Position numbers and translations under genes: made by a program. Shown here piece after piece: positions 8,383 to 41,102 of a DNA stretch of 64,000 bases (its first letter is position 1; every line of letters starts with the position of its first letter). The notes beneath the pieces are model-generated. The model saw only the letters and a program-made list of their open reading frames with translations, did no database searches and was not told where the DNA came from. Source of the DNA: Chamaesiphon minutus PCC 6605 (GTDB lineage: Bacteria > Cyanobacteriota > Cyanobacteriia > Cyanobacteriales > Chamaesiphonaceae); NCBI RefSeq assembly GCF_000317145.1, contig NC_019697.1, forward strand, positions 4,290,886 through 4,354,885, in the 5' to 3' direction.

Positions 8383-8383
8383 A

Positions 8384-8520: not shown

Positions 8521-8523
8521 CCC

Positions 8524-13333: not shown

Positions 13334-13972
13334 ATGGCTACAAATTCAGCAAAATCGTCGGGAATGCGGCGACAACCACGACAGGTACGGAGTCAAGAGC
13401 GAGTGAGTCAGATCTTGGATGTGGCGGAACAGTTATTTATTGACAAGGGTTACAATGACACTACGACTAATGCGATCGCCGCTGGTGCCAAAGTACCCAT
13501 CGGATCGCTGTATCAGTTTTTTCCCGATAAAGGCGCGATCGTCGGTGCATTAGCGATGCGTTACACCGATCGACTCCACCACCGTTTCATGGAGTTAGAT
13601 CCCGCTGAAATGGCAAATTTGAGCTTGGCTGCCTATGTCGATCGGATTGTCGATACTACGGCACAATTTTTCGCCGATTATCCTGGCTACCATTCGATTT
13701 TCATGCAGGTACAAGGCACGATTCCCGAACTAGAAGCGATCGAAAATGCGGCTGATACGCAATTAATTGAAGATTTGGCAGCATCTTTGTCTCGCTATCA
13801 TTCGGGTTTAGCTACTGCCGATTATGAGGCGATCGCGTTTACATTAGTCAAAGCGATCGGGACTTTATTATGGTTATCGCTCAGTCAAGAACAGATTTTC
13901 CAACAACGGTTAGTTACCGAAACTAAACGATTGATGCTGAGTTATTTACAAAGTTATTTTGCAATGGATTAA
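13334..13972 (+). CDS. TetR/AcrR family transcriptional regulator
   Basis: 212 residues. The N-terminal DNA-binding domain RSQERVSQILDVAEQLFIDK then TTTNAIAAGAKVPIGSLYQF is typical of TetR proteins; the C-terminal domain is a helical ligand-binding region without a recognisable ligand motif. Divergent from the 13160 ORF and the Coq4-like gene across about 170 bases, so it likely represses that pair and itself. The effector is unknown. Confidence 0.9.
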   Translation: MATNSAKSSGMRRQPRQVRSQERVSQILDVAEQLFIDKGYNDTTTNAIAAGAKVPIGSLYQFFPDKGAIVGALAMRYTDRLHHRFMELDPAEMANLSLAAYVDRIVDTTAQFFADYPGYHSIFMQVQGTIPELEAIENAADTQLIEDLAASLSRYHSGLATADYEAIAFTLVKAIGTLLWLSLSQEQIFQQRLVTETKRLMLSYLQSYFAMD

Positions 13973-14044
13973 ATCTAACTAGTTGGCGAAGCCTCGATCG
14001 TGTCGAGTCGAGTAGGTAAGTTCTTGATATTTAGCGAACTTAGT

Positions 14045-24976: not shown

Positions 24977-25072
24977 ATGGGTGAATCAGTCAACTACAGT
25001 GTTGGCATCGTTGTTATTTGTCTGGCAATCCTAATCGGATTGTGGCTGCCAGGAATTTTAAAAGAGAGGTAA
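24977..25072 (+). CDS. 31-residue single-pass membrane ORF
   Basis: ATG to TAA of 31 codons: polar start MGESVNYS, a single hydrophobic helix (VGIVVICLAILIGLWL), and a basic tail PGILKER. This is the layout of small photosynthetic and respiratory complex subunits, but no known member matches the sequence. It lies between the FHA-GAF gene and the HExxH gene; coding is suggested only by composition and length. Confidence 0.4.
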   Translation: MGESVNYSVGIVVICLAILIGLWLPGILKER

Positions 25073-25110
25073 GCTCATCCATTTGGTACCACTATCAATC
25101 GTCATTAGCC

Positions 25111-26475: not shown

Positions 26476-26811
26476 ATGAGTGCTGAATCAGTCGGTAAGT
26501 TTTTAGAAAGAGTAGAAGCAGACGAACAATTGCAAGAAGAGTTAGCTCAAGTTATTGAGACAGCCGCCAGTACCGCAACAGAAGGTGCCGACCGACAAGG
26601 TGCTACTGAGTTGGGGCAAAAATATGGCTTTGATTTTTCCTCCGAAGAACTGTGGGCGGAAATTAACAAACGCCAAGACCAAGTCAAGGATCGTCAAGGC
26701 AGTGGCGAATTGAGCGATGACGAGTTAGAAGCAGTAGCTGGTGGTGGTGAAATTTGGATTGCTACTATAGCTTCTACGATTGGTGCTCTAATTGGCAAAA
26801 TTAAGTGGTAA
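26476..26811 (+). CDS. Nif11-like precursor peptide 1
   Basis: 111 residues. The leader (MSAESVGKFLERVEADEQLQ) is a Nif11-type leader, ending ELSDDELEAVAGG, the double-glycine site cut by C39 peptidases. The core, from GEIW onward, is 21 residues long, hydrophobic, has Thr7, Ser10 and Thr11, no Cys, and ends GKIKW. Because the site reads AGGG, cleavage could be one residue later. ATG 26476 is preceded by GGGAG at a good distance. It is the most divergent of the four copies and is the first substrate in the cluster. Confidence 0.9.
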   Translation: MSAESVGKFLERVEADEQLQEELAQVIETAASTATEGADRQGATELGQKYGFDFSSEELWAEINKRQDQVKDRQGSGELSDDELEAVAGGGEIWIATIASTIGALIGKIKW

Positions 26812-26838
26812 GACAATTTAGTCTAGTTTAACTGTTGA

Positions 26839-26873
26839 GCCTCCTGCTAGATCTGGTAGGAGGCCACATTTTT
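26839..26873 (+). terminator. Hairpin after precursor 1
   Basis: GCCTCCTGCTAGATCTGGTA continuing to AGGAGGC (26839-26864), an 8-bp GC-rich stem with further partial pairing, followed by CACATTTTT. Covarying hairpins follow precursors 3 and 4, suggesting conserved attenuator or terminator function. Confidence 0.65.
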
Positions 26874-26886
26874 GTAGTAAGTAGAG

Positions 26887-27037
26887 CGATTGGTGGCTTA
26901 ATGTTTACTTTAGAAATCAACTCTCAACTACTGAACAAATACTGAACAAAACTGAATTTTTATGTATTTACTTTTTAATCGATCGTATCTACTCTAGATG
27001 TAGTTCATTTTGATAACCTTTTCAAGGGAGATTGCTC
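26887..27037 (+). promoter_or_regulatory. Upstream block of precursor gene 2
   Basis: Duplicate of the 26331 block. It holds the direct repeat CTACTGAACAAA-TACTGAACAAAACTGA around 26929-26955, which would suit an operator or stacked binding site, then TTTTTATGTATTTACTT and the RBS region GGGAGATTGCTC before ATG 27038. Confidence 0.55.
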
Positions 27038-27385
27038 ATGAGTGCTCAATCCGTTACTCAGTTTTTAGAAAGAGTAGAAACAGACGAACAATTGCAAGAA
27101 GAGTTAGCTCAAATTATTGAGTCAGCCGCCAATAGCGCGACCGATGGTGCCGATCGACAAGGTGCTACTGAATTAGGGAAAAAATATGGCTTTGATTTTT
27201 CCTCCGAAGAACTTTGGGCAGAAATCAAAAACCGCCAAGACCAATTTAAAGAGCGTCAAGGCAGTGGCGAATTGAGCGATGAAGAGTTGGAAGCAGTAGC
27301 TGGTGGCGGTGAAATTTGGATCACCACCATATTTACGGCTACTACAGCTATTGCTACTGCTGTAATTCCCAAAATTAAGTGGTAA
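27038..27385 (+). CDS. Nif11-like precursor peptide 2
   Basis: 115 residues, Nif11 leader identical in type to copies 1, 3 and 4. Core after AVAGG is 25 residues: starts GEIW, six Thr at core positions 6, 7, 10, 12, 13 and 17, no Ser or Cys, Pro21, and ends PKIKW. The Thr density is the feature expected of a substrate for the LanM-type dehydratase encoded downstream. The copy differs from copy 3 at only a few core positions. Confidence 0.9.
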   Translation: MSAQSVTQFLERVETDEQLQEELAQIIESAANSATDGADRQGATELGKKYGFDFSSEELWAEIKNRQDQFKERQGSGELSDEELEAVAGGGEIWITTIFTATTAIATAVIPKIKW

Positions 27386-27446
27386 GACAATTTAGTCTAG
27401 TTTAGCTGTTGTGCCTTCTGCTATATCTAGAAAGTTCTCCATAAAG

Positions 27447-27482
27447 CAGTGGAAAATGTAGCTTTTACCACATTTTCCACTG
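27447..27482 (+). terminator. Hairpin after precursor 2
   Basis: A 12-bp perfect stem CAGTGGAAAATG (27447-27458) with CATTTTCCACTG (27471-27482). There is no clear T-run downstream. It differs in sequence from the hairpins after copies 1, 3 and 4 but occupies a similar post-stop position. Confidence 0.5.
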
Positions 27483-27548
27483 TTCCTGCCTAAAGAATAG
27501 CCTTAGCGATCTTCGTCAGCAAGACGATCTATAACTTCTTGTAACTCG

Positions 27549-27702
27549 ATCGATTGGTGTCTTAAGATTTACTTTAGAAATCAACCCTCAAATACTGAAC
27601 AAGTACTGAACAAAACTGAGTTTTTATGTATTTACTTTGTCAGCAACGGTATCTAATATATAGATAGTTAATTTTGATAGTCTTATTAAAGGGAGATTGC
27701 TC
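27549..27702 (+). promoter_or_regulatory. Upstream block of precursor gene 3
   Basis: Third copy of the repeated block, with CAAATACTGAAC-AAGTACTGAACAAAACTGAG and TTTTTATGTATTTACTT, and GGGAGATTGCTC before ATG 27703. The CAGCAACGG segment here replaces ATCGATCG of the other copies. Confidence 0.55.
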
Positions 27703-28050
27703 ATGAGTGCTCAATCCGTTACTCAGTTTTTAGAAAGAGTAGAAACAGACGAACAATTGCAAGAAGAGTTAGCTCAAATTATTGAGTCAGCAGCCAATAG
27801 CGCGACTGATGGTGCCGATCGACAAGGTGCTACTGAATTAGGGAAAAAATATGGCTTTGATTTTTCCTCCGAAGAACTTTGGGCAGAAATCAAAAACCGC
27901 CAAGACCAATTCAAGCAGCGTCAAGGCAGTGGTGAATTGAGTGATGAGGAGCTAGAAGCAGTGGCTGGTGGCGGTGAAATTTGGATCACCACCGTGTTTA
28001 CGGCAACAGCAGCTATTGCCACCGCTGTAATTCCCAAAATTAAGTGGTAA
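27703..28050 (+). CDS. Nif11-like precursor peptide 3
   Basis: 115 residues, nearly identical to copy 2 in its leader. Core of 25 residues with five Thr (positions 6, 7, 10, 12 and 17), no Cys; one of copy 2's Thr is replaced by Ala and one Ile by Val. It starts GEIW and ends PKIKW. High identity to copy 2 including upstream block indicates recent tandem duplication. Confidence 0.9.
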   Translation: MSAQSVTQFLERVETDEQLQEELAQIIESAANSATDGADRQGATELGKKYGFDFSSEELWAEIKNRQDQFKQRQGSGELSDEELEAVAGGGEIWITTVFTATAAIATAVIPKIKW

Positions 28051-28075
28051 TAAAATTTAGTCTTTAGCTATTCGT

Positions 28076-28101
28076 GTCTCCTACTGAATTCAGTAGGAGA
28101 C
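28076..28101 (+). terminator. Hairpin after precursor 3
   Basis: A perfect 26-base palindrome, GTCTCCTACTGAA with its complement. TATATCTAGCTA follows, as it does after the copy-4 hairpin. No long T-run, so it may slow or process the transcript rather than end it fully. Confidence 0.6.
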
Positions 28102-28225
28102 TATATCTAGCTAGTACAAAGTTGAGATTTGAATGGAAGCTAGGAGACTATATTTAGCTATTAAATAATTGAGAACAATTATGCTGAATATAGTTCATTT
28201 CATCAACATTAAATGGAGATTGTCA

Positions 28226-28573
28226 ATGAGTACTCAATCCGTTACTCAGTTTTTAAAAAGAGTAGAAACAGACGAACAACTGCAAGAAGAGCTAGCTCAA
28301 ATTATTGAGTCAGCCGCTAATACCGGAGCCGATGGTGCCGATCGACAAGGTGCTACGGAACTAGGCAAAAAATATGGCTTTGATTTCTCTTCAGAAGAAC
28401 TGTGGGCAGAAATTAAAAACCGCCAAGACCAATTCAAACAACGCCAAGGCAGTGGTGAATTGAGCGATGACGAGTTAGAAGCAGTGGCTGGTGGTGGTGA
28501 AATTTGGTTGACCACTGTCATTACTTCGACAGTAGCTATCGGTAAGGCCATATATCCCAAAATTAAGTGGTAG
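28226..28573 (+). CDS. Nif11-like precursor peptide 4
   Basis: 115 residues. The start ATG at 28226 has AATGGAGATTGTCA upstream (GGAG SD). An upstream in-frame ATG at about 28181 would lengthen the N-terminus without adding leader homology. The core of 25 residues is the most diverged of the long cores: Thr at 6, 7, 10 and 12, Ser11, an internal Lys17, Tyr20, then PKIKW. This copy lacks the repeated promoter block, so it is probably transcribed from further upstream or another signal. Confidence 0.88.
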   Translation: MSTQSVTQFLKRVETDEQLQEELAQIIESAANTGADGADRQGATELGKKYGFDFSSEELWAEIKNRQDQFKQRQGSGELSDDELEAVAGGGEIWLTTVITSTVAIGKAIYPKIKW

Positions 28574-28645: not shown

Positions 28646-30103
28646 ATGGATAATAAAATTGCTTTTGCGGCAGGTGCCCAACTATATACAGTCAACGCTA
28701 GCGATCGACTGTGTTCGGCGATTCAGCCTTTTATTCAAGAAATTTTTAATTATTTAAGCGGTTCGACCGATTTTGAAAAGGCGATCCTTCACGCCAAAAA
28801 CAAACATAAAAAAATAGCAGATCTCTTTTTTGATATCGAGCCAAGCCGAGTATCAGAGAGCTTCTCTTTAAAAAAACAATTTTTGATCCCTCCAGAAAAT
28901 CCGCTGGCAGGTTTGTTTTTTGAAAATGCGAAAATACCTAGTTTTTTAGGTCAGAAAGGCTTTGAAAAACTTCAAGACACAACACTTTTACCCCAGATTA
29001 AACAGCTCTTTTATCTCTGCGGGCAGTCAAATTTGTCGTACCAGCAAATTTGTCAACAAGTCAGCGATCGAACTGTCGATTTATTAGATCGATGGCTAAA
29101 ATATCGGATCGTGCGGGAGCAACCTCACGATCTCCAAAACATCGGCGATCTCTCAGTACCGGGAGTCGTGCGGCTCCAGCACGCATCGTTACTGTATCGC
29201 AGCAAAACTACCGGAGTTTTGGTAGATCCTCATCTCCACTCTAATTATGGGCTGCCTACGCTCCCGTCAGATATTACTCGCACCAAACTTGAAGGTTTGG
29301 TCGATGCGATTGTGATTTCCCACAGTCATTACGACCATTGGCATTATCCAACGCTGATGATGTTTCCTGCTGATATCCCCATCATCGTGCCTAAAGTGCC
29401 CCACGGAACGATGACTTGCGAAGATATGGCCGCTCGTTTGATAAGCTTGGGATTTGAGAATGTTATTGCTGTTGATTGGTATGCAGAGCCGATTAGAGTA
29501 GGCGACATCGATATTCACGTATTGCCGTTTTACGGCGAACAACCTCTAGTTCCAGAATACGATCGCCCTAAATATCCCGAATTGAGAAACTGGGGGAATA
29601 CTTATCTATTAAAGACCGAAGACTATACTTCTTGGTTTTTAATAGATGCTGGTAACGAACCAGAGCATTCGATGGTCGAAGTAGCCGAATATGTCAAACA
29701 AAAATTTGGCAGTATCGATAGTATCATCAGTAATTTTCAACCCTTATCTTATAACTCGATCGGTACAAATTTATCGAGTTGGGGTATAGATATTGTTGCT
29801 AATTTACTCAGCAATCCGCAAATATTTTCGGTAACTAATCAGCAAGAAGGTGGCTATATTTCTACCTTGGGGCCACAGGGAGTAGCCGAACTTTGTGCTG
29901 TCGTAAAAGCCAAAGCTTGTTTGCCCTACGCTCACAGTTGGGCGGCATTAGGCAGTTATACCAGTGATGACGAACGGCTCATTCAAGCCACCCAAGCCGA
30001 ACTCCAGCGGCTAAACTGCGCGACCGAGGTCATTCCTTGGCACATTGGCGACGGTTACCTTTGTAACAGTAAGGACTCAAATTGTCAGCCAATATTTGCT
30101 TAA
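28646..30103 (+). CDS. MBL-fold protein with N-terminal wHTH-like region
   Basis: 485 residues. The metallo-beta-lactamase fold has the metal motif HSHYDH (residues 226-231) and the Asp in LIDAGNEPEH. The N-terminal about 180 residues resemble a winged-helix/peptide-recognition region (LSYQQICQQVSDRTVDLLDR). MBL proteins with two metals can be hydrolases or oxidases. It starts 72 bases after precursor 4 and begins the modification genes, so action on the peptide is likely. Whether the N-terminus binds the Nif11 leader is inference. Confidence 0.75.
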   Translation: MDNKIAFAAGAQLYTVNASDRLCSAIQPFIQEIFNYLSGSTDFEKAILHAKNKHKKIADLFFDIEPSRVSESFSLKKQFLIPPENPLAGLFFENAKIPSFLGQKGFEKLQDTTLLPQIKQLFYLCGQSNLSYQQICQQVSDRTVDLLDRWLKYRIVREQPHDLQNIGDLSVPGVVRLQHASLLYRSKTTGVLVDPHLHSNYGLPTLPSDITRTKLEGLVDAIVISHSHYDHWHYPTLMMFPADIPIIVPKVPHGTMTCEDMAARLISLGFENVIAVDWYAEPIRVGDIDIHVLPFYGEQPLVPEYDRPKYPELRNWGNTYLLKTEDYTSWFLIDAGNEPEHSMVEVAEYVKQKFGSIDSIISNFQPLSYNSIGTNLSSWGIDIVANLLSNPQIFSVTNQQEGGYISTLGPQGVAELCAVVKAKACLPYAHSWAALGSYTSDDERLIQATQAELQRLNCATEVIPWHIGDGYLCNSKDSNCQPIFA

Positions 30104-30139: not shown

Positions 30140-31726
30140 ATGGGACATACACGCATTAACACTAACCCGACGATGACTCGATATCTGGTCGAAGAGTTAG
30201 GTGTGTTTGAGAATGACCCGATCGTTATTTGCGATGTGGGTGCCAGAGGGGGATTTGAACCCCAATGGCAAGTGTTTAGTTCGCAGGCATGTTCGATCGG
30301 CTTTGAACCAGATCCCATCGAGTTCGCTCGGCTCCAGGATTCGCTCTCATCGGCAACCGATCGAATTTATCCTCTGGCATTAGGCAAGCAAAGAGAGCGG
30401 CGACTGTTTTCGATCTGTCGCCATCCCGGTGGTTCGAGCTTTTACCCAGCAGATCTGCACTTTATCGAGCGGTTTCCACCAGAGTATGCCCAAGAACTCA
30501 CTGTCACGCAAACACTAGAAGTCGAAACAGTCAGTCTCGATGAATTTGTTAGAGATTACCAAATTTCCACAATTGACTTCCTCAAATTAGATACCGAAGG
30601 CAGCGAGCTAGATATTTTGCAGGGTGCGCGGAATATTTTGCAAAACAGCGTCCTGGGGCTGAGTTTAGAGGTGCTGTTCCATAGCTCGATGCGCCAGCAA
30701 CCGACTTTTAGCGACATCGATCGATTTTTGCAAGCGATGGGGTTTCAATTGTTCGATTTGGAGATCTATCGCCATGCTCGTCGCGCGCTCCCTCGTCCGA
30801 TGTCAAAATTTGGCAACACCGACATCGGTCAGGTGTTGTGGGGACAGGCTCTCTATTTGCGAGATGGCGTTGCCGAAATCGATCGATCGAATTCGAGCGA
30901 TTGCCAGCCGTGGCATCAGACTCGGATTCTCAAACTAGCCAGCCTGATGGAAATTTTTACATTACCAGACTGCGCGCTAGAACTGATTCGGGATAGCACC
31001 GCTTTCCTCGATCGAGATCTGCAAACTTCGATCGAACGCGCGATCGTCCGCAATGTCAATTCTCTCACCGAACCTGCCATGAATATTCAATCTGCCGATC
31101 GGTTATCAACCGCGCCCAGTCACGTTCCGCAGCCGCGTGGCTATGCCCAACGTTTTGATTGTTTGTCCGCTGCCGAATTACAACACCTTGCCCAGACCAT
31201 TACCACCTCTCCTTACTTAGCCGCCAGTCAGTTGAGTACCAATTTTCAGGGCAGTCGGGGGTTTTCGGTGATTTTTACTCGCTCGGGAATCGATCGCGTT
31301 AAGGAACACTTTCCCGGCTTTGCACCCTATCTAGACAAAGCTCTGAAGTCTGCTTGTAATGCCTTTTATCTCAACCCGTTGCTGCTCGACGAAGGTATGG
31401 GCGTCGAACCTCATGTAGACTGTAGTATTTCTAGTTATGACATGGTACTGACGATTCCCAAAATCGTCAGCGTGCTGTACGTACAGGTACCGGAAGATAC
31501 GATCGGTGGCGAACTGATTCTCAGAACAGAACAGCGGCTCATTGGCACGATCGTCCCGCAAACCAATAAATTAGTTTATTTTGTCGGGCAGTTATTACAT
31601 TCAGTCAATCCCGTCCATTGCTCGTCGAGCCGCATCAGCCTGATCTGCGAACAATATCATCTTAGCGAAGATCGGCTCAAAAATATTCCCGAATTTGAAA
31701 TTAAGTCTGCGGCTAAGAAATATTAG
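30140..31726 (+). CDS. FkbM methyltransferase fused to a 2OG-Fe(II) oxygenase
   Basis: 528 residues. N-terminal about 20-240: FkbM-type SAM methyltransferase (VICDVGARGGFEPQW, IDFLKLDTEGSELDILQ), a family methylating hydroxyls. After a helical linker, residues 345-528 hold a 2OG-Fe(II) oxygenase-like domain: metal triad H425-x-D427 and H487, and R498 for 2-oxoglutarate. Both halves look complete, so hydroxylation followed by methylation of the same residue is possible. It follows the MBL gene by 36 bases. Confidence 0.8.
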   Translation: MGHTRINTNPTMTRYLVEELGVFENDPIVICDVGARGGFEPQWQVFSSQACSIGFEPDPIEFARLQDSLSSATDRIYPLALGKQRERRLFSICRHPGGSSFYPADLHFIERFPPEYAQELTVTQTLEVETVSLDEFVRDYQISTIDFLKLDTEGSELDILQGARNILQNSVLGLSLEVLFHSSMRQQPTFSDIDRFLQAMGFQLFDLEIYRHARRALPRPMSKFGNTDIGQVLWGQALYLRDGVAEIDRSNSSDCQPWHQTRILKLASLMEIFTLPDCALELIRDSTAFLDRDLQTSIERAIVRNVNSLTEPAMNIQSADRLSTAPSHVPQPRGYAQRFDCLSAAELQHLAQTITTSPYLAASQLSTNFQGSRGFSVIFTRSGIDRVKEHFPGFAPYLDKALKSACNAFYLNPLLLDEGMGVEPHVDCSISSYDMVLTIPKIVSVLYVQVPEDTIGGELILRTEQRLIGTIVPQTNKLVYFVGQLLHSVNPVHCSSSRISLICEQYHLSEDRLKNIPEFEIKSAAKKY

Positions 31727-31735: not shown

Positions 31736-33463
31736 ATGAGCCACTCTTTTTTAACAGATTATATCAAACTCGTTCGACCGCATACCTCACCATCACTCAT
31801 TTCAGAACAAACTTGGGATAAAATCAACAATGTAGCTGAATTTTTACCGAATAAAATTACTTCTTTCTTTGGATTTGAGTGTCCTCTAGGAATTGCCACA
31901 GCGCAGAGTGATTTCTTAATTTGTGCGGAAGATACAGCCGGAACTGGTCGGGAGATCTTAGCAGATAAAGATCGATTTCCCACAGCTTTATTATCCGATC
32001 CGGTCTGGCAGCAAGTCACTCAATTTGGTCGAGAATGGCAGGATGAGAATTCGATCCTTTATCAAAAAATTCATAATGTCTGGCTAGAATTCGATCTAGA
32101 TGGTGACGCACAGCAGTTACCAGTTCCTAGTTGTTTTTTTGGCTCCGAACCGATTTATGCGGCGACATCGCCCTATGCCAATCCAGCGACGCCTGCTTAT
32201 TGCTGGGTGAGCGAATCTGCTTTAAAACATCTCCTCAACGATCGATTGCCAGAGCGAGTAGAAGCCAAACTGTTTGAGTGTTTCGATTGTTTGCCTCCCG
32301 AAGCTTATGTATTTCAGATCGGGCTGATGTTGGCGAGAAATATTAAAGATGCAGTCAGAGTTTGCATCCGTGACATTGCGCCAGCCCAAATTGGTGAATA
32401 TTTGCAAAAAATTGGTTGGCCTGGTTCTGTGGAGATCTTGCAAGAATTCGTGCGAGAAATTGCAGATTTTGTCGAACGCATCGACTTAGATATTGATATT
32501 AGCGATCGAGTCTTACCGAAAATTGGGTTTGAATGTTATTTTAGCAAGCAACCTAAATTAGAACCGCGATGGCAGATATTTCTGGATTATTTAGAGCGTA
32601 ATAACTTATGTCTGCCGCAAAAGCGAGCGGGTTTGCTAGCTTATCCTGGCTTTTTGCGCGAAAGTGCCGCACCTAATGATTGGCCGAGTTATCTGTCGCG
32701 AGCGGCTCGAACGCTAGAAAATAATAATGCCGAAGCGGTTTTCTTCCGTAAAATACATCATATCAAAATTGTTTATCAAGACGATCGACCGCAATTGGCC
32801 AAAGCTTATCTGGCGATGGGCTATCGATCGATCGATTCAGCGTTTGTCGATCGCTGGCGCAAATTTACTAATTCCAGCGTCCAAATCGATAACTTTATCG
32901 AGCCAGAAGTACACGATCGCTTGCTAAAATTCGTCCGAGATTCACAGGCACAATTCATGCCGAGCGAAATCGGGATCGACAATACAGCATTAGCAATCCA
33001 TCGCCGCTCTTCGATCTTAGAGTCATTTCCAGAGTTTGAAAAAATACTCAATCGAAAAATTGCCGCCATTTTACCGGATATATTTTCTAAATTAGGATTG
33101 CCCGATTTTCCGATCGAGCGGTTAGAGACACAGCTTACCGCTCACAACGATGGCGATTATTACCGAGTTCATAATGATAGTGGCACGACCGAAAGTAGCG
33201 ATCGGATTCTTACCTACGTTTATTACTTCTATCAGGAGCCAAAAGCTTTTAGCGGTGGGGAATTACGAATCTATGAAACAAATCTCAATACGCAAATTCA
33301 TTATGCAGATTCGTTCCAAACGATCGAACCGCGTAATAACAGCATTGTTTTTTTTCCGAGTGCTTACATGCACGAAGTTTTAAAAATTAATTGCCCCTCT
33401 CAAGCTTTTGCCGACAGTCGCTTTACGATGAACGGCTGGGTGTGGCGTAAAAAATCGAATTAA
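31736..33463 (+). CDS. 2OG-Fe(II) oxygenase with long N-terminal region
   Basis: 575 residues. The C-terminal 170 residues form a prolyl 4-hydroxylase-like 2OG-Fe(II) oxygenase: H479-x-D481 (YRVHND), GGELRIYETN, H546 (AYMHEV) and R562. The N-terminal about 380 residues have no recognised domain, though two Cys-rich stretches occur near residues 60 and 185. The gene begins 10 bases after the preceding stop, indicating one operon. A role in hydroxylating the core peptide is likely but not proven. Confidence 0.78.
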   Translation: MSHSFLTDYIKLVRPHTSPSLISEQTWDKINNVAEFLPNKITSFFGFECPLGIATAQSDFLICAEDTAGTGREILADKDRFPTALLSDPVWQQVTQFGREWQDENSILYQKIHNVWLEFDLDGDAQQLPVPSCFFGSEPIYAATSPYANPATPAYCWVSESALKHLLNDRLPERVEAKLFECFDCLPPEAYVFQIGLMLARNIKDAVRVCIRDIAPAQIGEYLQKIGWPGSVEILQEFVREIADFVERIDLDIDISDRVLPKIGFECYFSKQPKLEPRWQIFLDYLERNNLCLPQKRAGLLAYPGFLRESAAPNDWPSYLSRAARTLENNNAEAVFFRKIHHIKIVYQDDRPQLAKAYLAMGYRSIDSAFVDRWRKFTNSSVQIDNFIEPEVHDRLLKFVRDSQAQFMPSEIGIDNTALAIHRRSSILESFPEFEKILNRKIAAILPDIFSKLGLPDFPIERLETQLTAHNDGDYYRVHNDSGTTESSDRILTYVYYFYQEPKAFSGGELRIYETNLNTQIHYADSFQTIEPRNNSIVFFPSAYMHEVLKINCPSQAFADSRFTMNGWVWRKKSN

Positions 33464-33490: not shown

Positions 33491-35305
33491 ATGTTAGTAT
33501 CAGAAATTTTAAACGGATTGCCGAAGTTTTTGGAATGGATGGTGTTGTTCGATCTGTCTGCGGTGCGGCAATTAACCGACGATGCGATCGTCAGAGGGAT
33601 GTATCATTTGCCTGAAGATATCGACTTAGATCCCTACTCTCATGCCATTTTGACCAGCCACGGCAGATTTTTAGCCTCTGGAACTCGGCAGTGGTTGAGC
33701 GAACCTAATTCGGGTAAGGGTTGGTCGCCCAAAATGATTAAATCTTCGCTCGCAGATCGCTTTGAATCGCAACTGGCTCTGTTTGAGGTCGATGAGTCCC
33801 ACTGTTTTGGATTGGGAGAACAATCTCCCTTTGCTCCCGTGTTACTCCACGTCAAAATCGATGCCGATGGCTATGGAGCCGCACGAGCGATTTTCGATCG
33901 AGAACCCACTCAAAAGCATTACGAGTTGCTGCAAGCCGTAGGCGTGAAGTTTCTAGGCGGCGAAACTCAAGACAACTATTACATCGCGCGCTTCCGCAAT
34001 CGCCTACCAGTTCACATCCATGCAGGCATTTTGTCCCATTTCAGTCGCACTGGACATTGCAACCTCTTTTTTCTCCAACATGGCAATATCGACTCCCTAT
34101 TAGAAGAAGGTTTGCTCAAAGCTGCGGCAGTGCGGATTAAATTTGCCAAAAATCGGGCTTACCAGGCGGTAGCTCAACTTGCAACCGCAGCTTGTCAGGA
34201 TTCCGATCTGGCGATGACTTGTCAGCCACCCGCACCCGCACCATCTTTTAGCTATGGTAATTTAGTCCCACTGGGATTTGCGCTCCAGGCGTTGAATGTA
34301 GCAACTGCCGAGGAGGACGCAGCAGATAATATCGCTGACGCACGTCAAAACTTGAGTCAATTTTTGGCAGATAACAGTCAAGACGGACTCTGGGCGTTTC
34401 AGACAGGACGTTTGATTACGGCTACCGATTCTGCTTTAGTATTACAAGGCTTTACAGATCCAGCCGCAGTCCAAGCGTTAGAAATATTTGCTGACGGACG
34501 CGGTGGTTACTATCCTCAACTCTGGTCGGAGCGAGAAGAAGCAGGCAAAATGCTGTTAGACGCAAGTTGTCGTCACTGGTGTCAAACTGATTATGCGACG
34601 ACCTGTCTGGTGAGAGGATTGCAACAACGAGCTGGATTGCCAACGACGACGAGTTTGGCTTATTTAGAGGCTGGTTTTGCCCAACGTAGTGGTTTATATT
34701 TTGCCAATCCTTATTTAGTCGATTATGCTCTCGCCCAAGCCATCGAACTCGATCCGGCGGCAGCATCTTTGCGACAACAACTCTTAACCGAGATGCTCGC
34801 GAGCATGAATGCCGATTACTCTTTTGGTACTTACGATCTGGCTTTTTCGACGGCTTTGGCGATTCTATGTCTGGCACGGTTGGGGTGTAACGGTCGCACC
34901 CTCCGCAGTGCGCAATTGCGGTTGTTAGATTTTATCGATAGCGAAGGCAAGTTCCCCACCGCAACGCCGTTCTACTCGAGCTTGCGCCTCGATGCCAACA
35001 TCCCGATGAAAAATATCTTGGGATTGTTATTCGCCCATAAGGTCGCCAGCGACGGGCAACAACAACAAATCAAAAAAGTGGAGGGCGAATATCATAGCAT
35101 TTCGCTGTATCTCGACACCCATGGAAAGATCTCTACGGCAGTCGCCGCTTTAGCCCTAGCGGCAAACTGTAATCCGGCAGCATACGATTTAGATTGGCAG
35201 CAGTCCGATCTTCAAGCTATTCATCCCCGCTACCAATGCACCCAGCATTGTGAATATATCGCTAAATTTGCCCTACCTTATTATCTACAGGGAGTGTACG
35301 CATGA
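33491..35305 (+). CDS. Alpha/alpha-toroid protein (prenyltransferase/squalene-cyclase-like)
   Basis: 604 residues. Repeats in the C-terminal half (QDGLWAFQTGRLITATDSAL, DYATTCLVRGLQQRAG, TYDLAFSTALAILCLARLG, KISTAVAALALAA) have the alternating helical pattern of the alpha/alpha toroid shared by squalene cyclases, protein prenyltransferase beta subunits and LanC cyclases. None of the LanC Cys/His zinc ligands are obvious, nor a DxDD or QW catalytic set, so its activity is open. It overlaps the next gene by four bases (ATGA), implying translational coupling. Confidence 0.55.
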   Translation: MLVSEILNGLPKFLEWMVLFDLSAVRQLTDDAIVRGMYHLPEDIDLDPYSHAILTSHGRFLASGTRQWLSEPNSGKGWSPKMIKSSLADRFESQLALFEVDESHCFGLGEQSPFAPVLLHVKIDADGYGAARAIFDREPTQKHYELLQAVGVKFLGGETQDNYYIARFRNRLPVHIHAGILSHFSRTGHCNLFFLQHGNIDSLLEEGLLKAAAVRIKFAKNRAYQAVAQLATAACQDSDLAMTCQPPAPAPSFSYGNLVPLGFALQALNVATAEEDAADNIADARQNLSQFLADNSQDGLWAFQTGRLITATDSALVLQGFTDPAAVQALEIFADGRGGYYPQLWSEREEAGKMLLDASCRHWCQTDYATTCLVRGLQQRAGLPTTTSLAYLEAGFAQRSGLYFANPYLVDYALAQAIELDPAAASLRQQLLTEMLASMNADYSFGTYDLAFSTALAILCLARLGCNGRTLRSAQLRLLDFIDSEGKFPTATPFYSSLRLDANIPMKNILGLLFAHKVASDGQQQQIKKVEGEYHSISLYLDTHGKISTAVAALALAANCNPAAYDLDWQQSDLQAIHPRYQCTQHCEYIAKFALPYYLQGVYA

Positions 35306-36414
35306 GAAGTTTAGCTATTTGTGGCGACCATCTCGATCCGCTGGTCAAAACGCTCGCAACTGCCAAGATCGAATTAGATGGAATCCCGTTGGTGGCTGGT
35401 TTGCTAGCCACACCAGATCTGGACTTCGATCCGCAATCTTTAGAGCATCGCGATCGAGTCTTAGTCAAAAAACTCGCCTTTTCTTGTAACTATCGCGATA
35501 AAGGATTGATGTTGACAGCATCTGCCAAATTACAGCCCGATCGCTATTATACGATCGGGTCGGAATTTGTCGCCGAAGTTGTCGCCGTGGGTGCCGAAGT
35601 TACTGATTTAAATATTGGCGATCGCGTCATTGGCAATAATCAATATCCAGATTCCGGGGTAGCCGGAATAGCCCCTGGGGTACCGACCAATCATGCTTCC
35701 AAAGAATACCAAATTTTTCACCCGGTTAAGTTACTAAAAATACCGCCGCAAATGCCCGATGAAATTGCTGCTGTATTTAGTATCGGCGCGCAGACTACTT
35801 ACAGTATGATTCGCAAACTGAATATTAAACCAGGCGATAATATTTTAGTCACTGCGGGTAAATCGAATACTTCTTTGTTTGCGATCGCAGCTCTGAAGCA
35901 ACATAACGTCAATGTTTACGTTACCACTACTTCGATCGATTTCGCTCAGAAGTTTTACGATCTAGGTGTAAAGCAAGTAATTGAAGTCGATCTCAACGCC
36001 GATAAATTAATCCCACCAGAAGTAGCCCGTGTCATCAAACACGAAATCGATGGTTTTGACTGTATTATCGATCCATTCTTCGATCTCCATCTTGGCAAAA
36101 CTATTCAAACCTTAGTCGATGGCGGTCGTTATGTCACTTGCGGTCTCTACCATCAATTTTTGGGTACGGCATTCGAGTATCGCGGATTGGCTCTCAAAGA
36201 CATCATGACCATCGTCATGCTCAAAAATATTCAAATCATTGGTAATTGTGTCGGTCAAACTTCCGATTTAGCTAATGCGATCGAAGATTATGTGACTGGT
36301 AAATTCCCCGTTGCGATCGACTCAGTTTGGAGTGACGATCGCCTTTACGATTTTTTCAATCGCACCTATCATGCCAAAGATCGATTTGGCAAAGTTGTTT
36401 ATCGCTATAACTAA
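35302..36414 (+). CDS. MDR-family reductase, LanJ(A)-like candidate
   Basis: 370 residues of the medium-chain dehydrogenase superfamily. The N-terminal domain has FSCNYRD (C62-NYRD) and a GSE motif (86-88) where classical zinc alcohol dehydrogenases have GHE, so catalytic zinc is doubtful. Structural zinc Cys residues are missing. The nucleotide region is AGKSNTSLFA (185-194). In lanthipeptides, LanJ(A) enzymes of this superfamily reduce dehydroalanine or dehydrobutyrine to D-Ala or D-Abu. Placement beside a dehydratase supports that here; the specific assignment is inference. Confidence 0.7.
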   Translation: MRSLAICGDHLDPLVKTLATAKIELDGIPLVAGLLATPDLDFDPQSLEHRDRVLVKKLAFSCNYRDKGLMLTASAKLQPDRYYTIGSEFVAEVVAVGAEVTDLNIGDRVIGNNQYPDSGVAGIAPGVPTNHASKEYQIFHPVKLLKIPPQMPDEIAAVFSIGAQTTYSMIRKLNIKPGDNILVTAGKSNTSLFAIAALKQHNVNVYVTTTSIDFAQKFYDLGVKQVIEVDLNADKLIPPEVARVIKHEIDGFDCIIDPFFDLHLGKTIQTLVDGGRYVTCGLYHQFLGTAFEYRGLALKDIMTIVMLKNIQIIGNCVGQTSDLANAIEDYVTGKFPVAIDSVWSDDRLYDFFNRTYHAKDRFGKVVYRYN

Positions 36415-36426: not shown

Positions 36427-37908
36427 ATGAAAATTCAACTTATCGGTCATGCTTCTTTGTTTGTAGAAACTCAAGATTGTCGAGTCTTAATGGATCCGGT
36501 CTTTGGTGATACTTTTTGCGATGGTCTCAACGCGACATGTCCCCAACGCGAAGTATTTGCCGAAAAAATCCCCGAATTTGATTTCCTCATAATTTCGCAT
36601 CAACACCTCGATCATTTCGATCTACCGACACTAGCATCGCTACCTAATAAAAAAGTCGATGTGCTGATTCCCCAAGATCGAGCGATCGAAAAATGTCTGC
36701 GCCAACTCGGCTATTCACGAATTTATCCCGTCCGCGATTTTCAGAAAATTAAAGTCGGCTCGACTAAAATGATTCCCACCCGATCGGAAATTCCCGTACC
36801 AGAGTATGGAATGATTTTTGCCGACGACAGCGGGGTGTTTTGGAATGCGGTAGACACCTTATTTGCCCCCCAAACAATTCAACGGATTCGCGCTGAATAT
36901 CCTCAAATCGACCTATTATTAACGCCTTGGCATATCAGCCTCGAAGGAAAATATCAATACAATCATAATATTTCTTTTCCTTTTTCGCTCTATAGTTATT
37001 TATTTTATTTAATTGGTTTAGTCGGAGCCAAAGCCGTCGTGCCAGGGGCGCAAGGCTTTAAATATATCAACGAATCAGCTTGGCAAAATCAAGTGGTTTT
37101 CCCGACTACCAGAGAGCGATTTTGTCACGATCTCAAGCTGGCATTTCCGGAGATTGCGGATAATATTTTAACCTTCGATCCGGGCGATACACTGACGATC
37201 GATCGCGACAATCTGCAACTAGATCGCGACAACTGCGAGTTTGCCAGAACCATTGTTGACGATCGAGCATGTTTGGATTTTATACCTACCAAAATCGGCG
37301 TACCTCTAATCGACACTAATGTTGAAAATCATCCCCTGCCATTTCTGACAGAGCAGATCGAGCGACAAATAGAAGTAGAACTACCACAGTTTATTACCAC
37401 TTATCAAAATTCGGTATTTCTAGAACATCGTCATTGGCAGGTAATTTATCAATTAGAAGTAATTTTTCCCGATCGCACTCAAATCTGGTCGATCGATTTT
37501 TCTCAACCCAATATTACTGCCGTTAAAGGACGCAATCCGCTGGCTAATCTGTTTACGAGTATTAGTGCATCTTGTTTGTATGCCTTAATGGAAAAACAGC
37601 GCGATTGGGACTATTTAGTCTGTAGTGGTGAGTATCGCACCTTCCATAAAATTTATGCAGTCGCGCGTCACGGTATTGTTGCTGCTGAAAATTCCGTACC
37701 CAAAGATCCTTTGGAATTAAGATTTCCTTCAGTTTTTATCGCTGGCAAACATCTCGATCGAGAGTTATCCAAATTAGTAGATCCGCACCAAGCATCATTG
37801 CCAGCCGATGAGGATGACAATCCGATGATTGCCGTTGGCAATATTCTGCTCAAGTCTCAAAAGGCGCGTCACCAGCAAGCCGATGCCAACGAATTAGTCA
37901 AACAATAA
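36427..37908 (+). CDS. Second MBL-fold protein
   Basis: 493 residues. Metal motif HQHLDH (58-63) lies close to the N-terminus, which here lacks the N-terminal extension of the other MBL protein. A conserved LLTPWHISLEG follows near 160. The C-terminal about 170 residues (IWSIDFSQPNITAVKGRNPL) resemble small SCP2-like or ligand-binding domains attached to MBL proteins of UlaG/CMAH type. Two MBL proteins in one cluster suggest distinct substrates or a sequence of oxidative steps. Confidence 0.7.
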   Translation: MKIQLIGHASLFVETQDCRVLMDPVFGDTFCDGLNATCPQREVFAEKIPEFDFLIISHQHLDHFDLPTLASLPNKKVDVLIPQDRAIEKCLRQLGYSRIYPVRDFQKIKVGSTKMIPTRSEIPVPEYGMIFADDSGVFWNAVDTLFAPQTIQRIRAEYPQIDLLLTPWHISLEGKYQYNHNISFPFSLYSYLFYLIGLVGAKAVVPGAQGFKYINESAWQNQVVFPTTRERFCHDLKLAFPEIADNILTFDPGDTLTIDRDNLQLDRDNCEFARTIVDDRACLDFIPTKIGVPLIDTNVENHPLPFLTEQIERQIEVELPQFITTYQNSVFLEHRHWQVIYQLEVIFPDRTQIWSIDFSQPNITAVKGRNPLANLFTSISASCLYALMEKQRDWDYLVCSGEYRTFHKIYAVARHGIVAAENSVPKDPLELRFPSVFIAGKHLDRELSKLVDPHQASLPADEDDNPMIAVGNILLKSQKARHQQADANELVKQ

Positions 37909-37924: not shown

Positions 37925-39115
37925 ATGTTAGTAGAAGACTTTGATTTTGAAAAAATAATTTCGCCAATTTCTTTAGATACCTTTATTACCGATTACTGGG
38001 AGCAAAAGCCATTACTTATTGCTAGAGAGCATCCTACTTATTATCAAGAACTATTCTCCAAGCAGGCTTTGGATTCTGTGTTGTTCTTCTCAACTCCCAA
38101 ACCACCCCAACTGAGAGTTATTAAAAACCAACAAGAAGTTTTTCCCGATAAATATATCAAGCAAGATGGACAGCTCAATCTCAATCAATTGTATAAACTT
38201 TACGATGAAGGTAACACTTTAGTCGTGAATGGGCTACATCAATTGTGGTTGCCGCTGACCATTTTGTGTCGCAATCTGCAACTAGCTTTCAATCATACCG
38301 TCATTGCTAACTGCTACGCCTCACCCAAACAATCCAAGGGCTTGATGCCCCACTACGATACCCACGATGTATTCGTCCTCCAAATCGAAGGTGCCAAGCA
38401 GTGGTTCGTACATGAAGCTCCTCAACCCGTACCGTTGCTCCACAGCGATCAACCGATTATTCCCGAGGGCAAACTTGCCGAACCTTTATATAGCATTTAT
38501 TTAAAAGCTGGGGACTTATTATATATTCCGCGCGGTTTCATTCATCACGCGGCTACCGCAGACTCGGCTTCGTCCCTGCATCTAACTATCGGTTTGTATG
38601 CCACTCAGTGGTTCGATCTGTTAATTCAGGCACTAACTCAAGTGAGCTGTCAACGTGCCGAATTTCGCCAAGCCTTACCCTTGGGCTATCTACAGCGATC
38701 GGAAATTAGAGCCGACCTCAAGGCGCAATTTCAGTCACTGACTGAAAAGTTCTGTCAAGAGGCCAACTTTGACGCCGCCATCGACATTACGCTCGAAACC
38801 TTCATTCGTCAAATGACACCAGTTCCCGACGGTCATTTAAGTCAAGTCGATAATTTAGATAAAGTCACTCTAGAGACGATCGTGGCGAAACGCAAAGGGA
38901 TGGTTTGTCGGTTAGTCCGCCAAGATCGGTTCATCAGCATCCAGTTTCCAGGCAACACCATTAAGGGCGAAAGTCATCTCCAAGCAGCATTGACATTTAT
39001 TACCGATGCCGAATCTAGCTTTAGCGTGGGCGATCTCCCCGATAATCTCACCGATGAGGGCAAAATCGTCTTAATTCGTCGCTTAATTAGAGGCGGACTT
39101 TTGTATCAAATTTAG
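37925..39115 (+). CDS. JmjC/cupin_4 oxygenase
   Basis: 396 residues. N-terminal segment FITDYWEQKPLLIAREHPTY is the signature of the cupin_4 (ribosomal-oxygenase, YcfD/ROXA) family, 2-oxoglutarate and Fe(II)-dependent protein hydroxylases. Metal residues: H143 and D145 (MPHYDTHD), and H207/H208 (RGFIHHA). The C-terminal helical dimerisation and wHTH regions are present. In this operon the substrate is likely to be the modified peptide rather than a ribosomal protein, but this is inference. Confidence 0.8.
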   Translation: MLVEDFDFEKIISPISLDTFITDYWEQKPLLIAREHPTYYQELFSKQALDSVLFFSTPKPPQLRVIKNQQEVFPDKYIKQDGQLNLNQLYKLYDEGNTLVVNGLHQLWLPLTILCRNLQLAFNHTVIANCYASPKQSKGLMPHYDTHDVFVLQIEGAKQWFVHEAPQPVPLLHSDQPIIPEGKLAEPLYSIYLKAGDLLYIPRGFIHHAATADSASSLHLTIGLYATQWFDLLIQALTQVSCQRAEFRQALPLGYLQRSEIRADLKAQFQSLTEKFCQEANFDAAIDITLETFIRQMTPVPDGHLSQVDNLDKVTLETIVAKRKGMVCRLVRQDRFISIQFPGNTIKGESHLQAALTFITDAESSFSVGDLPDNLTDEGKIVLIRRLIRGGLLYQI

Positions 39116-39128: not shown

Positions 39129-41102
39129 ATGCAGTCACACAATCCCGATCTCATCGCCTCAATTGTCAGTAATGCGGCTACGCTCTCCGAACATCTCGAC
39201 AATTGCCAGGTGTTACCCCAGTCGCCACTGGATGAAGAACAGATCCAACGGCGGCTAACATCGTGGTCTCAAGCCGTGGCAAAAGGGGATCGCCATAAAT
39301 TCGAGCAGCGGTTGGCTTGGGCTGGCTGGGATCTGCCCACAATTGCCCCTTGCTTGGGAGCTACCCCTCGTTGTGACGCACCGCTACCTGAGTGGGCACA
39401 GACCCTCGATCGAGTGCTGCAAATAGCCACCACGACGACGCCAGCCCAACTATTTGCGCCCCAGTCTTACCTAGATCCGGCAGATCCGATTGCCTTCGAG
39501 CACTTTTACCTGCCCTGCGTGCGAGTCGCCCAGCTCAAGCTGAATGATTTAGTCAGTACAGAGGACTGGCAATTACTAGCTGAGTCCGCACGCTCGGCTT
39601 TAGACCGCAGTCTGTTACGCCGTCTCAATTCAATTGCGACTTGGACGCTGCTAGACGAATTTACGAAATTTCGGTCTTCAGGCAATGCGCTGCAAGATTT
39701 TATGCTAATCAAGCTGCGCGGACACGATCGACAAGACAAGTACCAAGCCTTTATTTCCAAGCTATTTGCAGATGGCTTGGCGACCTTTTTTCGAGAATAT
39801 AGCGTTTTAGGCCGCGCGATCGCCCAGGCGATCGATTTTTGGGTAGAGGCGAATGCCGAATTTATCCACAGACTAGCTAGAGACAAAGCGGAGATCGAGC
39901 GAGTGTTTGCCGCAGAGCGACCGTTAGGGCAAGTTGTCGATCTCGGGACTGGGTTGTCAGACTCCCATCATCGCGGTCGATTTGTAATTTCTCTGACCTT
40001 TGAGACTGGAATGCAACTGGTTTATAAGCCCAAGAGTCTCAATTTAGATGTTGCTTTCTATCGCTTATTAGAGTGGCACAATTCCCATCTACCGCCCTTG
40101 TCTCTCAAAGTCCTCAACATCCTCAACTGTCAGCAGTATGGGTGGGTAGAGTATGTCGCCTGTACCGATTGTCAAACCGCAGCAAATGCCAGTCACTTTT
40201 ACCAAAGAATCGGCATGTTAACGTGCCTGGTTTATGTATTGGAGGGTACAGATTGTCACCATCAAAATCTAGTAGCCTATGGCGAACATCCCGTCTTAAT
40301 CGATTTAGAAGCTCTATTACACCACCGAGTCAAATTAGCCTTACCGCCAGAGCAAAATACGTTGGCTGAATCAGTTTTGCGGACGAATATGTTGCCTAAC
40401 AGCGATTTGCAATGGCAAGAGAAAACCGAGCGACAAATATATGATAATAGTGGCATCGGCGGAGTACATCAGCAAGAGTTATCTATTTTAATCGTCAAAC
40501 ATATCAACAGCGATGCGATGGATCTCGATCGAGAAACGCTGGCTTTCTCCGAAGCAAATTCACCCACTCTCCAAGGCACGCCGATCTCTCCGGCTGACTA
40601 TTTAGAAGATGTCTGTAGCGGATTTGAACGCATGTACCGTTTTTTAATGACACACGATCGAGAATTACTCGCACCGGAGAGTTGTCTTTACGATTTAGCA
40701 CACCAAACAGTTCGGTTTGTCTTTCGCTCTACATCTACTTACGGGCTGATTCTCCAAAATTCTTATCGCCCAGCATTGCTACGTTCTGGGATCGATCGCA
40801 GTATTAGCCTGGAGCTATTGAGTCGGGCGTTTACGCTCGGCGACGGCAAACCTTTGGGTTGGCCGATTCTCAAGGCGGAATTAGACGCCATGGAACAGGG
40901 CGATATTCCTTTTTTTGGGGTAAACTCATCCAGCGATGACTTGATTGTTGGCAATGGGGAAGTCGTGCCAAAATTATTTGAAGACCATAGTTTTAAACTA
41001 ATGTTGCGACGACTCCAAACATTAAGCGAAGTTAACTTAGTCGAGCAAATAGCCACAATCCGCAAGTCACTATCTTTGCGCTTTCAAGATATTGCAGCTT
41101 AA
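39129..41102 (+). CDS. LanM-type dehydratase lacking the LanC cyclase domain
   Basis: 657 residues. It matches only the DUF4135 dehydratase region of class II lanthipeptide synthetases. All catalytic motifs are visible: DSHHRGRF (about D278), VYKPKS (about K300), DCHHQN (D375, N380), LIDLE (D392) and FRSTSTY (R533). In LanM this domain phosphorylates Ser/Thr, then eliminates phosphate to give Dha/Dhb. The protein stops after RLQTLSEVNLVEQIATIR, the normal domain boundary, and there is no LanC remnant in the next 150 bases. Leader recognition is as expected for LanM acting on Nif11-type leaders. Confidence 0.88.
   Translation: MQSHNPDLIASIVSNAATLSEHLDNCQVLPQSPLDEEQIQRRLTSWSQAVAKGDRHKFEQRLAWAGWDLPTIAPCLGATPRCDAPLPEWAQTLDRVLQIATTTTPAQLFAPQSYLDPADPIAFEHFYLPCVRVAQLKLNDLVSTEDWQLLAESARSALDRSLLRRLNSIATWTLLDEFTKFRSSGNALQDFMLIKLRGHDRQDKYQAFISKLFADGLATFFREYSVLGRAIAQAIDFWVEANAEFIHRLARDKAEIERVFAAERPLGQVVDLGTGLSDSHHRGRFVISLTFETGMQLVYKPKSLNLDVAFYRLLEWHNSHLPPLSLKVLNILNCQQYGWVEYVACTDCQTAANASHFYQRIGMLTCLVYVLEGTDCHHQNLVAYGEHPVLIDLEALLHHRVKLALPPEQNTLAESVLRTNMLPNSDLQWQEKTERQIYDNSGIGGVHQQELSILIVKHINSDAMDLDRETLAFSEANSPTLQGTPISPADYLEDVCSGFERMYRFLMTHDRELLAPESCLYDLAHQTVRFVFRSTSTYGLILQNSYRPALLRSGIDRSISLELLSRAFTLGDGKPLGWPILKAELDAMEQGDIPFFGVNSSSDDLIVGNGEVVPKLFEDHSFKLMLRRLQTLSEVNLVEQIATIRKSLSLRFQDIAA

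Follow-up and report, generated by a model that had tools for sequence, protein, structure and literature searches.

The C-terminal tryptophan of Cys-free precursor peptides in a Chamaesiphon minutus gene cluster recurs beside proteins of predicted prenyltransferase and terpene-cyclase fold

Introduction

What could the conserved ends of four Cys-free precursor peptides be for, in a gene cluster that encodes a LanM-type dehydratase? This question is raised by a stretch of 64,000 nucleotides from Chamaesiphon minutus PCC 6605 (NCBI RefSeq assembly GCF_000317145.1, contig NC_019697.1, positions 4,290,886 to 4,354,885), called the window below, in which the precursor genes A1 to A4 head a row of genes on the forward strand (Table 1). 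A sequence-only reading of the window had described cores starting with GEIW, ending with KIKW and differing in a Thr/Ser-rich middle, and had taken the fixed ends as a sign of recognition or function. The observation is confirmed and its interpretation partly supported: the constant of the family is the C-terminal Trp, which is tracked by two neighbouring proteins, one with a predicted prenyltransferase fold and the other, X604, with a predicted terpene-cyclase fold.

Results and Discussion

The C-terminal Trp is the constant of the precursor family

All four window precursors start with ATG, and their leaders end in AVAGG, a double-Gly site as in cyanotin/Nif11 leaders. A1, the only one scanned, scores 38.3 bits against the Pfam Nif11 model (cut-off 23.8) and 38.5 bits against TIGR03798 (cut-off 32.3); judged by sequence, A2 to A4 are its paralogues. 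After AVAGG, each core runs from GEIW to KIKW, none contains the Cys of a class II lanthipeptide, and the Ser/Thr residues number 3, 6, 5 and 5 from A1 to A4, in agreement with the three to six hydroxyl residues described before. The precursors are near copies, the other three being 78, 88 and 97% identical to A3. Between any two of them the last four codons (AAA ATT AAG TGG) are identical, and the core middle shows 2-9 non-synonymous codon differences per pair. Because the paralogues are so close, conserved ends within the window are weak evidence of constraint, and a synonymous-site test of the tail, with no codon differences to work on, was uninformative.

Relatives were collected through homologues of X604, a 604-aa protein without annotation, which define what we call linked loci. 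X604 was found in 5 of the 386 sampled genomes of the phylum, at 16 loci in named genomes and in 2 of 72,556 plasmid records, giving 22 distinct loci with the window (genome G000 is the window; G030 and L061 were counted once). The scan of named genomes relied on two short patterns and is not exhaustive. Besides cyanobacteria, the loci come from Azospirillum sp. B510 (L143) and from metagenome-assembled genomes (MAGs) that we take, from their class names, to be Chloroflexota (L067, L069) and Acidobacteriota (L070, Terriglobia). Among them is that of Chamaesiphon polymorphus (L056), whose X604 is 96% identical to that of the window.

Precursors were the unique open reading frames (ORFs) matching a Nif11-type or nitrile-hydratase-like leader profile in all fetched stretches, apart from ORFs cut by a stretch end or longer than 220 aa. 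Of 64 linked ORFs, 62 have a double-Gly type site, the two dropped being L069 ORFs that end in LWE and TWD. Unlinked ORFs number 57, and 44 have such a site; the 13 dropped include two Trp-terminal ones, of which one is identical to a counted peptide. The 44 were split by hand into 16 from X604-negative genomes, a set selected by similarity to the precursor or prenyltransferase-fold family, and 28 from X604-positive genomes; in the latter group, L079 and L093 are contigs from MAGs that are fragmented and hold X604 elsewhere, and L037 and L108 come from other parts of genomes with X604.

A C-terminal Trp is present in 52 of the 62 linked precursors, and 41 of them end in Lys-Trp (KW). It is found in 9 of the 44 unlinked ones, namely in none of the 16 from X604-negative genomes and in 9 of the 28 from X604-positive genomes (five of these KW). 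Fisher tests give 3e-10 and 4e-6 for these two comparisons, both values being too small because the sequences are related. Counted by hand, 19 of the 22 loci have at least one Trp-terminal precursor; the others are L058 (damaged), L062 (a 5.3-kb contig) and L069. The Trp tail spans four phyla, Cyanobacteriota, Chloroflexota (L067), Acidobacteriota (L070) and Pseudomonadota (L143), and occurs with both leader types. The idea that a fixed C-terminus points to recognition or function is supported by a Trp that recurs across genera, families and phyla.

The other parts of the ends are less general. A leader of the nitrile-hydratase-like type goes with the tails GGW, GSW, AGW, SLW, SMW or NGW in L066, L067, L070 and a single gene of L060; in the peptides of the first three loci, Trp is constant and no Lys precedes it. 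As these tails share Trp alone, the C-terminal Trp is the constant of the family and KW its main form. Of the two ends proposed as conserved, the KW part of KIKW recurs widely, but GEIW is local to Chamaesiphon, being found in 6 of the 41 KW cores (four in the window and two in L056). Glu is the first residue after the glycines in 21 of the 41, the first Lys of KIKW (Lys-x-Lys-Trp) is present in 24 and lost in 17, and some KW cores hold just one or two Ser/Thr.

Absence of Cys is common, in 54 of the 62 linked cores. Homologues that have the same enzymes but a Cys-bearing core, the case that had been named beforehand as contradicting the sequence-only reading, do occur: Cys is present in five of the 41 KW cores (L057, two in L059, L061 and L143), each in a locus whose LanM has lost zinc ligands, and in the GGW-ending core of L067. 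A Cys-free core was therefore rejected as the defining trait of the family.

Two KW precursors with identical cores (L050 7194-7535 in G119 and L042 8053-8394 in G109) lie about 120 kb and 11 kb, respectively, from X604, and such distant precursors may be modified in trans. In the Chrysosporum bergii locus (L058, 7300-7500), a precursor was looked for and none was detected; its LanM is dehydratase-only and there is no intact start of MBL1, the first of two metallo-beta-lactamase (MBL)-fold proteins of the cluster, so that this cluster is apparently decaying. A mirror-tree comparison of three proteins over 13 taxa gave Spearman correlations of 0.93-0.96, values that ordinary shared descent would equally give.

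Two neighbouring proteins with predicted prenyltransferase and terpene-cyclase folds

The first 380 residues of a 575-aa protein encoded just upstream of X604 are predicted to adopt an ABBA-type indole prenyltransferase fold. The model was built from 15 sequences (predicted local distance difference test, pLDDT, 89.8; predicted template-modelling score, pTM, 0.89). When it is used as a Foldseek query, the first 41 rows are all ABBA-type prenyltransferases, aromatic/amino-acid or cyanobactin (best E 4e-5), and all 50 matches listed by VIA are prenyltransferases. The best of the latter is MpnD (Z 16.1, root-mean-square deviation (rmsd) 4.3, 301 aligned), and CymD (Z 16.0) and Trp-dimethylallyl transferases (Z 15-16) are also found. 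The prenyltransferase-fold gene directly adjoins X604 in 20 of the 22 loci, including the window. It was not found in L069 or in L070, where the contig stops within X604. In all 20 loci having both, the two are separate ORFs, and no fusion of the NctPC type (see below) is seen.

The prenyltransferase-fold domain is fused to a 2-oxoglutarate (2OG)-Fe oxygenase domain in the window and in 5 of the 21 other loci (L043, L044, L056, L068 and L144), and unfused elsewhere; this fusion hints at a substrate shared by the two domains. In the Chloroflexota MAG L067 (5285-15610), the prenyltransferase-fold/X604 pair is flanked by three B12-binding radical SAM proteins.

X604 has no Pfam match and, in NCBIfam, a single match at chance level (E 0.057); neither it nor the prenyltransferase-fold protein has a PHROGs match. 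Its model, built from 17 sequences (pLDDT 82.7, pTM 0.73), is weak at about residues 110-210. In this model, residues 208-562 form an alpha/alpha toroid whose closest structural matches are class II terpene cyclases, with MstE and SHC-like monodomain enzymes together at Z 27.5-29.4: 8pak (Z 29.4), MstE (Z 27.5-28.2, the match at Z 28.2 having an rmsd of 3.1 over 303 aligned), drimenyl-diphosphate and drimenol synthases (Z 22.5-26.1) and squalene-hopene cyclase (Z 25-26). The first non-terpene toroid, a GH76 protein, follows at Z 19.3, and the best Foldseek E-value is 2.3e-9. That the N-terminus of X604 might be a copy of the prenyltransferase-fold domain was considered and rejected, since no relation is seen when the profiles are compared (hhalign probability 0.5%).

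A terpenylated tail as the probable role of the Trp

We consider it rather probable that the cluster makes a cyanotin-type ribosomally synthesized and post-translationally modified peptide (RiPP) whose terminal Trp is prenylated, X604 then acting on the prenyl group, and this last step is the least certain one. The Nif11 leader would deliver the peptide to the ABBA-fold enzyme, which would place an isoprenoid on the indole ring of the last Trp. X604 could then bind the prenylated tail and reshape or cyclise the isoprenoid without a DxDD acid. The CmlA-like, 2OG-Fe and JmjC oxygenases would hydroxylate further positions. In the middle of the core, the cyclase-less LanM would dehydrate Ser/Thr, giving dehydro residues that the MDR (medium-chain dehydrogenase/reductase) protein may reduce. 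No thioether rings would form, and the peptidase-containing ATP-binding cassette (ABC) exporter would cut after GG and export the lipopeptide. What the computation itself shows is that Trp is conserved and goes with X604 and the prenyltransferase-fold gene, which folds are predicted, and that the cyclase is missing; every chemical step, as well as the isoprenoid length, the order of the steps and the action of X604, we infer.

Several points weigh against this scenario. Firstly, the profile of the prenyltransferase-fold family matches neither solved prenyltransferases, in a PDB profile search, nor a Pfam family, and the ABBA fold is assigned to it from a predicted model, at about 10% identity. 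Secondly, X604 has no PDB sequence match, and the class II acid motif DxD[DT] is found in none of the 22 X604 homologues (L063 and L070 are partial), for which reason X604 is not filed as a class II terpene cyclase; it may be inactive as a cyclase. By a reading of the sequence, not a structural alignment of residues, a T-x-T-D-S motif is placed at the DxD[DT] position, with T310, D313 and S314 present in 22 of 22 homologues and T312 in 21. Thirdly, of the 15 genomes with the prenyltransferase-fold family, 10 have no X604; none of the precursors found in such genomes is Trp-terminal. Conversely, L069 has X604 with neither a prenyltransferase-fold gene nor a Trp-terminal precursor, and with radical SAM and flavin adenine dinucleotide (FAD) genes instead. 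Fourthly, 10 of the 62 linked precursors lack the terminal Trp: one is an L041 gene with TGA in place of its sisters' Trp codon, five lie farther along the L041 contig next to another LanM, one is an overlapping ORF in L143, and three are plain exceptions (L060 ...KKFM, L070 ...GWWGT and L071 ...SSLV). Finally, the counts are not independent, as close relatives are included (window/L056, G109/G119 and L068/L144).

In the stretch of L069 concerned (an Anaerolineales MAG, 2286-9990), X604 stands beside B12-type radical SAM and FAD-dependent genes, and two small ORFs nearby (13366-14001) end in CLWE and CTWD.

Alternatively, the terminal Trp could be the target of oxidation or oxidative cross-linking, for example between Lys and Trp, by the CmlA-like, 2OG-Fe or JmjC oxygenases, the prenyltransferase-fold protein acting elsewhere or not being a prenyltransferase. 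Candidate oxygenases are indeed many in the cluster (two CmlA relatives, two 2OG-Fe domains and one JmjC protein), and Lys precedes Trp in most linked precursors, as counted above. We nevertheless judge this explanation unlikely. MBL1, the FkbM-type 2OG oxygenase and the JmjC protein were not found around X604 in L066 (a 7.3-kb contig) or L067, nor in L143, bar a weak JmjC match, and it is the prenyltransferase-fold gene and the Trp tail that remain in these three loci where the oxygenases vary; moreover, the Lys itself is missing from the L066, L067 and L070 peptides.

It seems similarly improbable that the aromatic-cationic tail is left unmodified, as a membrane-binding or export/recognition tail, which was the main idea of the sequence-only reading. 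The cores do read as hydrophobic, and the Lys-x-Lys-Trp end of 24 KW cores would suit such a role. However, it is X604 that the Trp end tracks, and neither the exporter nor LanM: other Nif11 precursors, in L033, L015 and L019, are neighbours of an exporter of the window's type or of a LanM and have no terminal Trp. Furthermore, a purely physical tail would not need an invariant last residue.

If the prenylation of the terminal Trp is true, it would provide a sequence rule, a C-terminal Trp together with X604, for finding terpenylated peptides without thioether rings, and would suggest why Cys-free cyanotins can sit beside zinc-less LanMs. It would also offer a prenyltransferase and a terpene-cyclase-fold partner as separate, recombinable proteins for lipidating peptides at their C-terminus, and it poses a question of enzymology, that of the role of a terpene-cyclase fold deprived of its catalytic acid. 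A bolder extension, which we hold as tentative and rather doubtful, is that X604 represents an unrecognised family of terpene-cyclase-fold proteins acting on peptides, which, working next to an ABBA enzyme encoded separately, would do without the DxDD acid in reshaping the prenyl group of the last Trp and would underlie a RiPP family in at least four phyla, its LanM now being a plain dehydratase or lost.

A LanM reduced to its dehydratase

The dehydratase domain of the window LanM is complete (PF13575, 1-377 of 378 profile positions, 425 bits) and holds 63 of the 64 positions that are invariant in aligned full-length LanMs, the exception being Ala for Leu at 230. Judged from its sequence, dehydration of Ser/Thr by this enzyme is plausible. 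The zinc-dependent LanC-type cyclase domain is absent from it. Over the whole genome, PF05147 was found in two places, both about 2 Mb off, and no cyclase gene lies near the window LanM.

This situation has parallels at the other loci. Among the 17 X604-linked LanMs aligned with MAFFT, on which the ligand assignments rest, three have no cyclase domain (window, L056 and L058) and one (L066) stops before the ligand region. At least two of the three zinc ligands are lost in 12 of the 13 that have the domain, the Chloroflexota LanM of L067 being the only one to retain C-C-C. The ligands are intact in L140 and in L001 and L002, both of the window's genome; partial LanMs are those of L055 and L041_15653, farther on in the L061 contig. 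As the LanMs of L047, L048 and L110 are also degenerate though unlinked to X604 on their contigs, ligand loss extends beyond X604.

The window's genome provides an internal contrast: the precursors beside its two intact LanMs (L002, L145 and L146) bear Cys and are not Trp-terminal. In that second lanthipeptide region (C1:2289855-2297671; L001, L002, L145 and L146), a CHG-type LanM is separated by about 6 kb from one of the CCG type, and the precursors are Cys-rich; such a neighbouring pair fits the description of C. minutus in the part consulted of PMC10027976.

The sequence-only reading had also proposed that the two Lys near the C-terminus could attack dehydrobutyrine (Dhb), giving bridges of the lysinoalanine type, here (methyl)lysinoalanine from the Lys residues of KIKW. 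The complete dehydratase domain and the Thr-rich cores speak for such bridges. As the reason for the tail, these bridges were rejected and are very unlikely. In genome G251, whose completeness is scored at 100%, a KW precursor occurs together with X604, the prenyltransferase-fold gene and MBL1, and nothing matches the DUF4135 dehydratase; since the KW tail is present there without LanM, it belongs with X604 and the prenyltransferase fold and not with dehydration. In addition, the first Lys is lost in the 17 KW cores mentioned above, KW is retained in cores with one or two Ser/Thr, and the constant of the L066, L067 and L070 peptides is Trp, not Lys. Finally, thioether formation after dehydration, by a distant LanM cyclase acting in trans, is hardly conceivable although two complete LanMs exist elsewhere in the genome, given that the window cores are Cys-free and that those LanMs, with their intact ligands, have Cys-bearing precursors of their own adjacent to them.

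Comparison with known systems

Terpenylated RiPPs made by fused enzymes are already known, and the split form of the window is a variant of them: the cluster joins known ideas, but its acceptor would be C-terminal and its MstE-like partner lacks the acid. Such RiPPs, made by NctPC/ChrPC, are said to have been described by Hubrich et al. in 2024. According to the part of a review available to us, NctPC is an ABBA/MstE-like fusion that geranylgeranylates Trp and then cyclises the group (PMC13290415). The prenylation of a core Trp by an ABBA fold, together with an MstE-like domain, is likewise what we propose here. Unlike NctPC, as far as that part goes, the window has two separate genes; its MstE-like protein is longer by about 200 residues at the N-terminus and lacks DxD[DT], and prenylation would take place on the C-terminal Trp.

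Two further enzymes modify Trp in RiPPs. MppC is a Nif11-leader-dependent ABBA enzyme that geranylates a core Trp in a LanM cluster, thus resembling our proposal in fold, leader dependence and acceptor; it differs in acting on Trp82 of a thioether-cyclised heptapeptide core, and no terpene-cyclase partner is described for it (PMC12715784). PalQ has a pronounced preference for a C-terminal Trp and, in the portion of the source consulted, is related to isoprene synthases (trans-IDS-like), not to the ABBA fold modelled here (PMC10853753). As for the fold predicted for X604 residues 208-562, MstE, from Scytonema, is a terpene cyclase of type II (PDB 6sbd and others) that acts on a prenylated aromatic and was solved with prenylated dihydroxybenzoate substrates. 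Unlike it, X604 lacks the class II acid motif, and its substrate would be peptide-bound.

With cyanotins, a named Nif11-leader RiPP family of cyanobacteria under which Cys-free Nif11 precursors are placed, the cluster shares the leader, diverse cores of which some are Cys-free, and a nearby LanM, as given in the sections consulted of PMC7268733. A Cys-free core beside a zinc-less LanM is reported for a relative in Pseudanabaena galeata (PMC11356792, consulted in part), whose plasmid locus is L144 in our set; unlike that enzyme, the window LanM lacks the entire cyclase domain. In the parts examined of these two articles, there is no mention of the Trp tail, the prenyltransferase fold or X604. 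No description of the association between Trp tail and X604 was found in the literature searched, which took in no supplements; related clusters may be described by Hubrich et al. 2024.

Other tailoring and export genes

Table 1. Coordinates of the precursor, tailoring and export genes in the window.
Feature	Position	Strand	Remarks
Precursor A1	26476..26811	+	111 aa, Nif11 leader, core GEIWIATIASTIGALIGKIKW
Precursor A2	27038..27385	+	115 aa, core GEIWITTIFTATTAIATAVIPKIKW
Precursor A3	27703..28050	+	115 aa, core GEIWITTVFTATAAIATAVIPKIKW
Precursor A4	28226..28573	+	115 aa, core GEIWLTTVITSTVAIGKAIYPKIKW
MBL-fold protein 1 (MBL1)	28646..30103	+	485 aa; relative of diiron oxygenase CmlA; HxHYDHWH retained
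FkbM methyltransferase fused to 2OG-Fe(II) oxygenase	30140..31726	+	
Predicted ABBA-barrel aromatic prenyltransferase	31736..32875	+	N-terminal 380 aa of 575-aa protein
2OG-Fe(II) oxygenase domain (residues 466-570)	32876..33463	+	C-terminal part of 575-aa protein
X604	33491..35305	+	604 aa; residues 208-562 predicted to fold like monodomain terpene cyclase MstE; no DxD[DT]
MDR-family reductase (acrylyl-CoA reductase-like)	35302..36414	+	Candidate reducer of dehydro residues or prenyl double bond
MBL-fold protein 2 (MBL2)	36427..37908	+	493 aa; weaker CmlA relative, 1.5e-6
JmjC_2 protein	37925..39115	+	MINA/NO66 are closest solved relatives
LanM-type dehydratase without cyclase domain	39129..41102	+	657 aa
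Protein with two cyclic-nucleotide-binding domains	41253..42359	+	Adjoins exporter genes
HlyD-like membrane fusion protein	42706..44313	+	Named by reading; homologues beside other clusters' exporter genes
NHLP-type export ABC transporter with peptidase domain	44320..46530	+	Double-Gly leader removal
Second ABC exporter subunit	46652..49591	+	Named by reading; homologues beside other exporters

CmlA is a diiron amino-acid beta-hydroxylase. MBL1, which 14 of the 21 other X604 loci also have (one as a fragment), resembles its metal-binding half (PDB 4jo0, E 1.2e-13, profile positions 175-298). The alignment covers the first metal-binding stretch, from HxHxDH to a shared Gly-Glu where the match ends, and the aligned Glu is retained. 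Only about 120 residues are aligned, and the substrate of MBL1 would be a peptide. As CmlA is the best solved sequence match for both MBL1 and MBL2, these proteins may be peptide hydroxylases rather than hydrolases. Fusion of the 2OG oxygenase part to FkbM is seen, among the other loci, only in L071. The presence of the oxygenases varies between loci, and we therefore treat them as decoration. The MDR gene is found in 13 of the 21 other loci (truncated in L057); since it is missing from L059, L061 and L071, despite their LanM and long stretches, its tie to dehydration is loose.

A 416-aa protein encoded upstream of the precursors (25018-26268) and the double cyclic-nucleotide-binding protein recur by exporter genes in several clusters. 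Downstream of the cluster, three ORFs (49873-50841, 60038-60877 and 63117-63977) read as transposase-like.

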